Origin: Cyanobacteria bacterium M_DeepCast_200m_mx_001
GTDB taxonomy: Bacteria > Cyanobacteriota > Cyanobacteriia > PCC-6307 > Cyanobiaceae
Direction of reading: 5' to 3'
NCBI GenBank assembly: GCA_016882415.1
Contig: VGQL01000010.1
Location: 1-36,384 of the forward strand
DNA length: 36,384 nt
Each line of letters begins with the position of its first letter. The first letter of the stretch is position 1. The translations under genes were made by a program, and so were the position numbers. The notes under the pieces were generated by a model. It searched no databases, was not told the origin of the DNA, and saw nothing but the letters and a program-made list of their open reading frames with translations. Of this stretch, positions 16,477 to 18,962 are shown piece by piece.

Positions 16477-16635
16477 TTGAACGACAACCACCCCGTGCTG
16501 CAGTCCATGCGGGATGAGCTGGAGGAGCTGCAGTCGCTCTACCGGCACGAACCCTCGGAGTTCAACCGCTATCAGCTGGTGCGCCACGAACAGCGCATCG
16601 CCCAGTGGGCCCCCGCCGACTTGGTGAGCGCCTGA
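16477..16635 (+). CDS. small hydrophilic protein
   Basis: A 52-residue frame runs from TTG 16477 to TGA 16633-16635; GTG 16495 and ATG 16507 are alternative in-frame starts, and none has a clear ribosome site. The protein is helical and charged: HPVLQSMRDELEELQSLY, then EFNRYQLVRHEQRIAQW and a short tail. It looks like a genuine protein rather than a shadow frame, with codon use like its neighbours. The family is unknown to me. The next gene starts 55 bases downstream. Confidence 0.55.
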   Translation: MNDNHPVLQSMRDELEELQSLYRHEPSEFNRYQLVRHEQRIAQWAPADLVSA

Positions 16636-16690: not shown

Positions 16691-17278
16691 ATGCGAGCGT
16701 TGCCCCTGCACCTGGAGGCCGGCGCCGACATCCGTCGCGCCCTGGAGGCCCTGGCGCAACGGGAAGGGGCAGAGGGCTTCGTACTCAGCGTGGTGGGCAA
16801 TCTGCGCCGGGCCGCGTTCGCCTGCCCGGGCCGCGACCAGCCCACGGTGCTGGAGGGTGAGCTGGAAATCATCACCCTGCAGGGCACCGTCGGGCCGCAG
16901 GGGGTGCACCTGCACCTGAGCTTCTCCGATGCCGAGTGTCAGGTGTGGGGGGGGCACCTCGAACACGGCAGTCAGATCCTCAGGGGGGCTGACCTGCTGG
17001 TGGGGTTCCTGACGGCCCCCACGGGCAGCGCCCCGGCAAGCCCGGGCCAGGCCCACCGCAGCGGGGAGCCACGGGTGCAGATCACCGTGGCCGAGGGCTG
17101 CCCCTGGTCGAGTCGCGCCCTGCGCATGCTCCGCAGCCTCGGCATCCCCCACCACACCCAAGTCAGCGACACGGGCCCGGTGCCCCTGATCCAGATCGAT
17201 GGGCAACCCATCGGCGGTTACGACGCCTTGGCAGAACTCCATGGACGCGGTGAACTGGAGGCGCTGCGCCAGCCGTGA
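16691..17278 (+). CDS. fused PCC/DUF296 domain and glutaredoxin-like protein
   Basis: This 195-residue protein has two domains. Residues 1-112 are a PCC (DUF296) domain, with the metal-type HLHLSFSD at 73-80 and GGHLEHG at 87-93. In bacteria this domain is found in putative DNA-binding or small-molecule proteins. Residues 128-195 are a short glutaredoxin-like domain: VQITVAEGCPWS with C137 but serine at the second cysteine position, the cis-proline VPLIQIDG around 164-171, and IGGYDALAEL. It would therefore be a monothiol type. A linker rich in Ala, Ser and Gly joins them at 110-126. ATG 16691 is preferred over upstream TTG/GTG. Its stop overlaps the next start (GTGA). Confidence 0.85.
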   Translation: MRALPLHLEAGADIRRALEALAQREGAEGFVLSVVGNLRRAAFACPGRDQPTVLEGELEIITLQGTVGPQGVHLHLSFSDAECQVWGGHLEHGSQILRGADLLVGFLTAPTGSAPASPGQAHRSGEPRVQITVAEGCPWSSRALRMLRSLGIPHHTQVSDTGPVPLIQIDGQPIGGYDALAELHGRGELEALRQP

Positions 17279-17862
17279 GCCCGGCAGCCGCCCCCCGCTG
17301 GCAACTGGACACCCTGGGGGCCTGTGAATTAGCCATCGCTGGCTACCCCCTGTTCCGCTACGACGCCCGCGGCGGTGTGGCCCTGGCGCAGGCCCAGGCC
17401 TCAGTCAGTGCTGATGCGGTGGAGCTGGCCTTCCCTGTCGAGGCGATCAGCATCCCCCCCCTGGATGGCCGCACCACCACCGTGCTGGGACTGCCGTTGC
17501 CGGCGGGCCTCTCCATCAGCATCGTGCCGCAGCAGCTCACGGGGCAGCTGAACATCCGCACCGGTGAGGTGATGCTGCGGTTGCGGGCCGCCTTTCGCTT
17601 CCGGGTTCGGCTGGGGCGCCTGGAGCTGCTGGCCCCGCCGGATCTGGCGGTGGATGCGCTGCTGAGCAGCGCGGGTTGCCGCAGCCGCCGCCATCAACGG
17701 CAGGGCCAGCCCCGCGATGGGCGTGGCTACACCACCGTGGCGGGCGTGGCCACGGTGCCGCCCTGCGGCGCCGCCTGGCTGGATCGCTTCCTGGGATTGC
17801 CTGACGAAGCCCTGGCGGTGTTGCACTGCCGCCTGACGGCGGCGCCGCAGCCATGCCCCTGA
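17275..17862 (+). CDS. hypothetical protein coupled to the PCC-glutaredoxin gene
   Basis: This is a 195-residue protein with no signal peptide or clear membrane helix. It is rich in beta-strand-like segments (VELAFPVEAISIPPL, LSISIVPQQLTGQLNIRTGEVMLRLRAAFRFRV), suggesting a beta-sandwich. I do not recognise the family. The GTG start overlaps the preceding stop (GTGA), and its end overlaps the metallopeptidase start by 10 bases, so the three are probably one translational unit. Confidence 0.7.
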   Translation: MSPAAAPRWQLDTLGACELAIAGYPLFRYDARGGVALAQAQASVSADAVELAFPVEAISIPPLDGRTTTVLGLPLPAGLSISIVPQQLTGQLNIRTGEVMLRLRAAFRFRVRLGRLELLAPPDLAVDALLSSAGCRSRRHQRQGQPRDGRGYTTVAGVATVPPCGAAWLDRFLGLPDEALAVLHCRLTAAPQPCP

Positions 17863-18962
17863 GGCGCCCCTGGCCACTGCTGCTGGCCCTGGCGATGGCA
17901 GCCCCCCTGCGGGCCCAGCCCTGGGCGCCGGGGCAGGAACCGCCGCCGCCGCCGCCCAAACCCGCGGATCCCGCCCAGGCCCGCGCCCTGGAGACGTTGC
18001 GGCAGGACCCCAAGGGGACCCCCACGGAGCAGCGCCAGCGCTACCTGCGGGCTGCCCACGACCTGCTCCACCGCCACTGGGGGAGCCGTGAGCAACCGGC
18101 CCTGCTGTTCGCCGGTGACACCGCCAAGGGCTGCGGGGAGACGCGGGTGGAGCACCCCATGGCCTTCTACTGCCCCCCCAGCAAGGAGATCGCCATGGCC
18201 CTCAACCTGCGGCGAAGTGTGCGTTCCGCCCGCGGCAAGAGTGATGCGGATCTGCTGCTGCTGGATCTGGCGGTGCTGGCCCATGAATGGGGGCACCACG
18301 TCAACCGGGAGCAGGGGCGGGGGCCCTATAGCGGCGGTCTGGGCCTCACGGTGAAGCAGGAGGAGCTGGCGGCCGACTGGCGCACGGGGGTGTTCCTGGG
18401 CTGGTTGATGGGCCATGACGCCCTCGGGGTGGAGGACTTCGCCCAGACGGCGAACCTGATGTTTGAAATGGGGGATTACGAGCGGATCTCCTTTCAGCAC
18501 CACGGCTTTCCGAAGGAGCGCTTTGAAGCCCTCACCCGGGGCCTGGCCAGCCAGCTCACGGTGGGACAACGCCTCGGCCCCTGGACGGTGGACAGCCAGG
18601 AGGCCTTCAGCCGCCCACTGCCGCCGGATCCCCTGGATCAGCAGCTGGGGCGCCGGCGGTATCAGGTGCAGCGTTTTGAAATCGACCGCAGCCAGCAGAT
18701 TGCCACCAACGTTCTGGGGGGGCTGCTGGGGGCCGCCAGTTGCGTCTGGGGCAATCAGCAGCAGTGCCTCGGCATGGCCATGGAGCAGGGCAAGGGCCGG
18801 GCCCATGGCAGCTACACCCGCCGGGAGCTGACCCTGTTCTGCGGCAGCGGCGGCTTTGACGTCAGTGAGGACGACTTCGGCGTGCAACCCCTGCACCGTG
18901 ACGGCAAGGGGCAGGCGGCGGTGTTGGCGGCGCGGGACTGCCCCGTCAAGCCGCCGAGCTGA
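17853..18962 (+). CDS. exported neutral zinc metallopeptidase-like protein
   Basis: This 369-residue protein begins with a signal peptide (hydrophobic 8-18, then LRAQ) and a proline run at 30-35. The catalytic zinc site HEWGH is at 144-148, and a downstream QEELAADW at 169-176 supplies the likely third ligand, as in the YpfJ/neutral zinc metallopeptidase family (HExxH...ExxAD). Several cysteines (C94, C107 and others) may form disulfides outside the cytoplasm. The substrate is unknown. The start overlaps the previous gene by 10 bases. The stop overlaps the convergent GST gene by 17 bases. Confidence 0.87.
   Translation: MPLRRPWPLLLALAMAAPLRAQPWAPGQEPPPPPPKPADPAQARALETLRQDPKGTPTEQRQRYLRAAHDLLHRHWGSREQPALLFAGDTAKGCGETRVEHPMAFYCPPSKEIAMALNLRRSVRSARGKSDADLLLLDLAVLAHEWGHHVNREQGRGPYSGGLGLTVKQEELAADWRTGVFLGWLMGHDALGVEDFAQTANLMFEMGDYERISFQHHGFPKERFEALTRGLASQLTVGQRLGPWTVDSQEAFSRPLPPDPLDQQLGRRRYQVQRFEIDRSQQIATNVLGGLLGAASCVWGNQQQCLGMAMEQGKGRAHGSYTRRELTLFCGSGGFDVSEDDFGVQPLHRDGKGQAAVLAARDCPVKPPS

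Follow-up and report, generated by a model that had tools for sequence, protein, structure and literature searches.

The window, by which we mean the whole 36,384-nucleotide stretch of DNA analysed here, comes from a member of the Cyanobiaceae (contig VGQL01000010.1) and carries a gene whose product joins an N-terminal PCC (DUF296) domain to a C-terminal glutaredoxin domain (Table 1). The gene runs from an ATG to a TGA; its start at 16691 is conserved, as 67 of 67 aligned relatives have M1. The motifs that mark the two halves are HLHLSFSD (residues 73–80) and GGHL (87–90) in the PCC domain, and CPWS (137–140), the cis-proline P165 and GG-Y-DAL (175–180) in the glutaredoxin domain. Two further genes follow on the same strand, the first of which we call c1.

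Table 1. Features of the fusion gene and its downstream neighbours, in positions of the window.
Feature	Position	Strand	Basis or remark
PCC–glutaredoxin fusion gene, 195 aa	16691..17278	+	sequence, Pfam, family profile, AlphaFold model
PCC (DUF296) domain, residues 1–108	16691..17014	+	PF03479 3.6e-19; Z 18.7 to 2p6y
C45, fusion-specific PCC cysteine	16823..16825	+	86/86 fusions; 0/22 stand-alone PCC
H73-L-H75, two of three invariant PCC histidines, likely metal ligands by analogy	16907..16915	+	86/86 fusions; 22/22 stand-alone PCC
C83, fusion-specific PCC cysteine	16937..16939	+	84/86 fusions; 0/22 stand-alone PCC
H89, third invariant PCC histidine (GGHL)	16955..16957	+	conservation, fusions and stand-alone PCC
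Variable Ala/Pro-rich linker, residues 109–127	17015..17071	+	model pLDDT under 50 at 109–124
Glutaredoxin domain, residues 128–193, without helix alpha2	17072..17269	+	NCBIfam, family profile, model
Active site C137-P-W-S	17099..17110	+	C137 86/86
Cis-proline P165	17183..17185	+	86/86
G175-G176 of the glutathione-site GG motif	17213..17218	+	86/86
c1, Cyanobiaceae-specific predicted beta-barrel protein, 195 aa	17275..17862	+	GTG start overlapping fusion stop
HExxH neutral zinc metallopeptidase relative (HEWGHH)	17853..18962	+	adjoins only in the window's genus; left out of the system

The composition of the window protein from a PCC and a glutaredoxin domain is confirmed, and chance is excluded as its origin. 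The Pfam PCC profile (PF03479) scores 69.6 bits against a curated cut-off of 25, and a profile built from 22 relatives finds the PCC structure 2p6y at 7.6e-22 and Escherichia coli glutaredoxin 3 (1fov) at 1.8e-17, recovering a thioredoxin fold in the C-terminal part. In an AlphaFold model made from six input sequences (pLDDT 78.7, with the linker at 109–124 poorly predicted), residues 1–110 align with PCC structures (2p6y, rmsd 1.6 over 109 residues) and residues 127–194 with glutaredoxin 3 (1fov, Z 10.2, 68 residues). Acetolactate decarboxylases come next in the fold comparison (Z 9.0–9.8 over about 100 residues), and the matches also include 2h6l, "Metal-containing protein AF0104". The first-pass annotation, which had recognized both halves from their motifs and had given the glutaredoxin half a single active cysteine, is thus borne out by motifs, profiles and fold alike, and the cysteine it had singled out, C137, is kept in every fusion compared.

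Comparing 86 distinct fusions with 22 distinct stand-alone cyanobacterial PCC proteins reveals what the two groups share and where they part. Invariant in the fusions are D13, G36, C45, E59, H73, H75, G88, H89, C137, P165, G175 and G176, and among these E59 and the three histidines are equally invariant in the stand-alone proteins. The cysteines C45 and C83 set the fusions apart: at position 45 the stand-alone proteins have mostly F or L and never C, and at position 83 always G. Exactly three cysteines are present in 53 of the 86 fusions, and these are essentially C45, C83 and C137. Conversely, R7, R44 and a T-T-E at 98-99-101 are found in all 22 stand-alone proteins, where the fusions have H or K, Q or A, and K-G-x-D, respectively. 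Most stand-alone proteins also end in a C-terminal strand of the pattern D-x-x-TGY-x-EL-x-I, and it is at this point that the fusion linker begins, such that linker and glutaredoxin replace the strand. None of these stand-alone marks is present in the window protein. Because conserved PCC positions have changed and a glutaredoxin stands in place of the last strand, the fusion is not simply a PCC domain to which a glutaredoxin has been appended.

The same division holds for bacterial stand-alone PCC proteins, which keep R7, R44, G83, a TTxE-like motif and the C-terminal strand and have neither C45 and C83 nor a glutaredoxin; most of this also applies to the solved proteins 2hx0 and 2p6y. What the solved proteins VCA0587 (2p6y), Salmonella 2hx0 and AF0104 (2h6l) have in common with the fusion is the fold and the H-x-H ... 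GGH histidines. By analogy with 2h6l and with a three-histidine zinc fold, a role of these histidines in metal binding is likely in the fusion as well. An outlying fusion (L047/L145, genome G054) is without C83, carries its C45 in a loop that is shifted and takes a basal position in the fusion branch; it is possibly an early or an independent form. A further natural PCC fusion is seen in two other genomes (L112 in G586 and L113 in G466), where one open reading frame combines GlmU-like NTP-transferase and hexapeptide domains with a PCC domain of the stand-alone type (PF03479, 9.8e-30).

The C-terminal domain had been called a monothiol glutaredoxin. The single active cysteine stands, but the class is that of glutaredoxin 3 (CPYC), with serine in place of the second cysteine: NCBIfam glutaredoxin 3 (TIGR02181) matches residues 129–195 at 3.4e-8 and with 33.6 bits, whereas the CGFS Grx4 family (TIGR00365) reaches 16.8, and both this score and the CPWS active site speak against the CGFS monothiol class. 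The second cysteine (C140) is kept in 17 of the 86 fusions, 16 with CPWC and one with CPYC. The CPWC dithiol form (L039–L041, L075–L087) occurs mainly in g5 and g34, two genera whose listed genomes gave no c1, a coincidence that comes from one clade and is a hint at most. With E. coli glutaredoxin 3 (1fov) and Synechocystis GrxA (3qmx) the fusion shares the thioredoxin fold, CPxx, the cis-proline and the GG motif, the last three of which include positions invariant in all fusions, which argues that the glutaredoxin site is under selection. The window protein nonetheless differs from both in its serine, in the PCC domain fused to it, in the missing lysine before the active site (A, L or R is found at 134) and, together with its clade, in a missing helix.

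This helix is alpha2: the window protein belongs to a clade (41 of the 86 distinct fusions) in which 12–14 residues are missing between beta2 and the cis-proline, and residues 158–166 are not helical in the model of the window protein. The loss is visible in the Pfam Glutaredoxin profile (PF00462), in which orthologues with alpha2 score 47.6–54.4 bits and those without it 16.4–22.7, just below the curated cut-off of 22.9; the window protein itself scores 16.4 (E 0.011). Routine annotation may therefore show the PCC domain alone throughout this clade. C137, P165 and the GG motif are still invariant there, and at position 163, ahead of the cis-proline, T has mostly given way to P or S. Taken together, the missing lysine, the change at 163 and the missing helix suggest that glutathione binding may be weak in the window's clade. 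At face value the trees require three changes of alpha2, but a single clade is not rejected (p-AU 0.503), and one loss is plausible if unproven. We considered whether the loss is tied to a c1 gene directly downstream and rejected this, since forms without alpha2 also occur with divergent c1 (G150, G189) and forms with alpha2 also have c1 downstream (g59, part of g6). Selenocysteine was likewise rejected: in the flagged matches the in-frame TGA or TAA is the true C-terminal stop, and the active-site codon encodes cysteine in the orthologues read.

The fusion is a feature of one family. The window protein has matches in 253 of 300 Cyanobiaceae genomes, and among the matches listed most span both domains, with a minority consisting of stand-alone PCC paralogues only; most of the Cyanobiaceae sampled thus carry the fusion, and the named relatives are Synechococcus-type picocyanobacteria. 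Among 386 genomes drawn from the phylum, only this family has full-length matches, and the matches outside it are stand-alone PCC proteins only. In the streamlined genus g17, with genomes of 1.6–1.7 Mb, every genome listed has the fusion. Some well-sequenced genomes (g9, G268, G073) have no convincing copy, so the fusion is not essential everywhere. A phage origin was considered and rejected, as scans of viral contigs gave no relative.

Downstream, the GTG of c1 at 17275 overlaps the fusion's TGA (17276–17278) by four bases, and the ATG at 17853 precedes the TGA of c1 (17860–17862), so the stop/start overlaps from which the first-pass annotation had proposed a three-gene redox or protein quality set are real. 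Of the set itself only the first pair holds up. Where both the fusion and c1 could be located (28 genera), the two are close in 20, nearly always within less than 1 kb, with c1 on the same strand and downstream in 8 genera, on the same strand but upstream in 4 and divergent in 11, some genera having more than one arrangement; that the linkage survives rearrangement suggests a functional tie. The gene at 17853, in contrast, is next to these two in no genus but the window's own; its place is taken by a rhomboid gene in some other genomes and by neither in others, and its product misses the curated cut-offs of NF050010 by a wide margin and also scores below that of PF04228. We therefore reject a three-gene quality-control set; neither c1 nor the gene at 17853 resembles a redox gene.

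Within the window's family, c1 is found in 160 of 300 genomes; phylum-wide it is found in 7 of 194, all 7 from that family. It is unlinked to the fusion in g4, g10, g39 and g56 and was undetected in g17, in g34 and in the g5 genome listed; c1 is therefore not obligatory for the fusion. A Pfam search with c1 gave no match. The protein is modelled with confidence as a beta-barrel (pLDDT 87.4), for which the polyisoprenoid-binding protein 1wub is a weak structural match (E 5e-3). An outer-membrane barrel was considered and set aside, the matches (Z up to 10) being unconvincing and the sequence having no evident signal peptide.

The fusion architecture itself is not new. A "DUF296-GRX" arrangement was published in 2009 together with a proposal of DNA binding (PMC2679010, BMC Evol Biol), and the window protein agrees with it, being a bacterial protein in which a DUF296 domain precedes a glutaredoxin of the CPYC class. 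The C45/C83 signature, the altered PCC pocket, the loss of alpha2 and the linked gene are absent from the accessible part of the survey; we did not find them in the literature searched either and consider them new. Searches for DUF296 in picocyanobacteria found nothing beyond the 2009 survey and found no functional, expression or biochemical study of the fusion. The fusion persists in most picocyanobacteria sampled, small-genome genera included, and in no other cyanobacterium sampled. Glutaredoxin classes V and VI of cyanobacteria are mentioned in PMC3816324, which cites Couturier et al. 2009 for class VI. Class VI is restricted to cyanobacteria. One of the two glutaredoxin classes, V or VI, carries DUF296, and the PCC–glutaredoxin fusions may be, we presume, what class VI contains.

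How might these parts work together? The reading we prefer, to which we give a probability of roughly 40%, is that the fusion is a soluble, probably homotrimeric metalloprotein with a glutathione-dependent thiol switch in cis; the domains, the pattern of conservation, the distribution and the linkage to c1 are what we observed, and the metal, the trimer, the disulfide, the direction of the switch and the partner are what we infer. The kept three-histidine site of the PCC domain would probably bind zinc or a similar metal, and the fusion branch would have gained the loop cysteines C45 and C83, lost the two arginines and the TTxE of stand-alone PCC proteins, and exchanged the C-terminal strand for a linker and a glutathione-using glutaredoxin. 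Oxidation would then produce a C45–C83 disulfide, or glutathionylation of either cysteine, altering the PCC pocket or its assembly, and the tethered C137 would reverse this with glutathione; the output would be an activity or ligand binding at the PCC site, perhaps together with the c1 barrel protein. A thiol switch is suggested by the near-invariance of C45, C83 and C137, by the fact that these are mostly the only three cysteines, and by the absence of C45 and C83 from stand-alone proteins in which the histidines and E59 are just as invariant. The metalloprotein part is favoured by a fold common to AF0104 (2h6l), acetolactate decarboxylases and a three-histidine zinc protein (PMC12435205), and the reading as a whole by the presence of the fusion in all listed genomes of the streamlined genus g17. 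The strand order suggests that C45 and C83 may lie apart in one subunit, so a disulfide may need two subunits, and the possibly weak glutathione binding in the window's clade may count against a thiol switch. A fuller version, in which C45 and C83 would switch the PCC metal site of a three-cysteine, glutathione-gated picocyanobacterial metalloprotein, its own glutaredoxin would reset them, and the face bared by the loss of alpha2 would be covered by the PCC trimer or the c1 barrel, seems to us doubtful.

The most serious alternative, which we think less than likely, is a glutathione-dependent enzyme with a catalytic PCC site, a metal-dependent lyase or a decarboxylase-like activity of the AF0104/acetolactate decarboxylase/PTD012 fold, in which the glutaredoxin would deliver glutathione or take a glutathione adduct of the substrate, and C45 and C83 would have a structural role or face the substrate. 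The PCC core resembles acetolactate decarboxylase (Z up to 9.8) and PTD012 (C11orf54), although it is about half their size, and by analogy of fold may share their three-histidine metal site; a three-histidine zinc protein of this fold has newly been assigned as a decarboxylase (PMC12435205). The invariance of the three histidines and E59 would fit such an activity, as would the adjoining c1, a predicted barrel with a weak match of ligand-binding type. The joint change of R7, R44 and TTxE in the fusion branch is what a change of substrate might produce, but the lost arginines and TTxE could equally mean lost catalysis; moreover, no pathway gene is consistently nearby, and in the literature found no substrate is reported for any bacterial PCC protein.

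Less probable still is that the glutaredoxin serves mainly as a docking or assembly module with residual redox chemistry, its alpha2-free sheet face packing on the PCC domain or the c1 barrel. The loss of alpha2 from 41 of 86 fusions, the helix-free model and the score below the Pfam cut-off would all accord with this; however, a pure scaffold has no need of C137, the cis-proline and the GG motif, which are invariant even in the alpha2-less clade, and there is no correspondence between the loss and where c1 lies. A redox-responsive DNA-binding regulator is very improbable, as the "putative DNA-binding protein" labels of PDB entries of this fold, the zinc-finger-like motif from which PMC2679010 argues, and the union of AT-hooks with PCC domains in plant AHL proteins are outweighed by the absence of an AT-hook (RGRP core) from the 195 residues and of a helix-turn-helix from the model, by three histidines in a beta-rich fold that form no zinc finger, and by AHL proteins themselves, in which DNA binding falls to the AT-hook and contacts with proteins to the PCC domain (PMC9946822). 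The suggestion of a redox-responsive regulator in the first-pass annotation thus keeps its redox part, by virtue of three near-invariant cysteines, and loses its DNA-binding part to the missing AT-hook and a fold of the PCC/acetolactate decarboxylase kind.

Returning to the thiol-switched metalloprotein, the pattern of C45, C83 and C137 makes a catalogued fusion testable for thiol-oxidation sensing or repair in abundant phototrophs. It also bears on the role of bacterial PCC domains, which the label "DNA-binding protein" has masked, and the glutaredoxin without alpha2 offers a probe of how little of the thioredoxin fold suffices.

Finally, 55 bases upstream of the fusion and on the same strand lies a 42-codon open reading frame (16507–16635, +), MRDELEELQSLYRHEPSEFNRYQLVRHEQRIAQWAPADLVSA, for which a Pfam search gave no match. 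It is kept in other loci of the window's genus with 59–71% identity, and stretches akin to it, of about 35 residues, occur elsewhere in other genera, mostly in frames of 55–65 residues and some of them in tandem.
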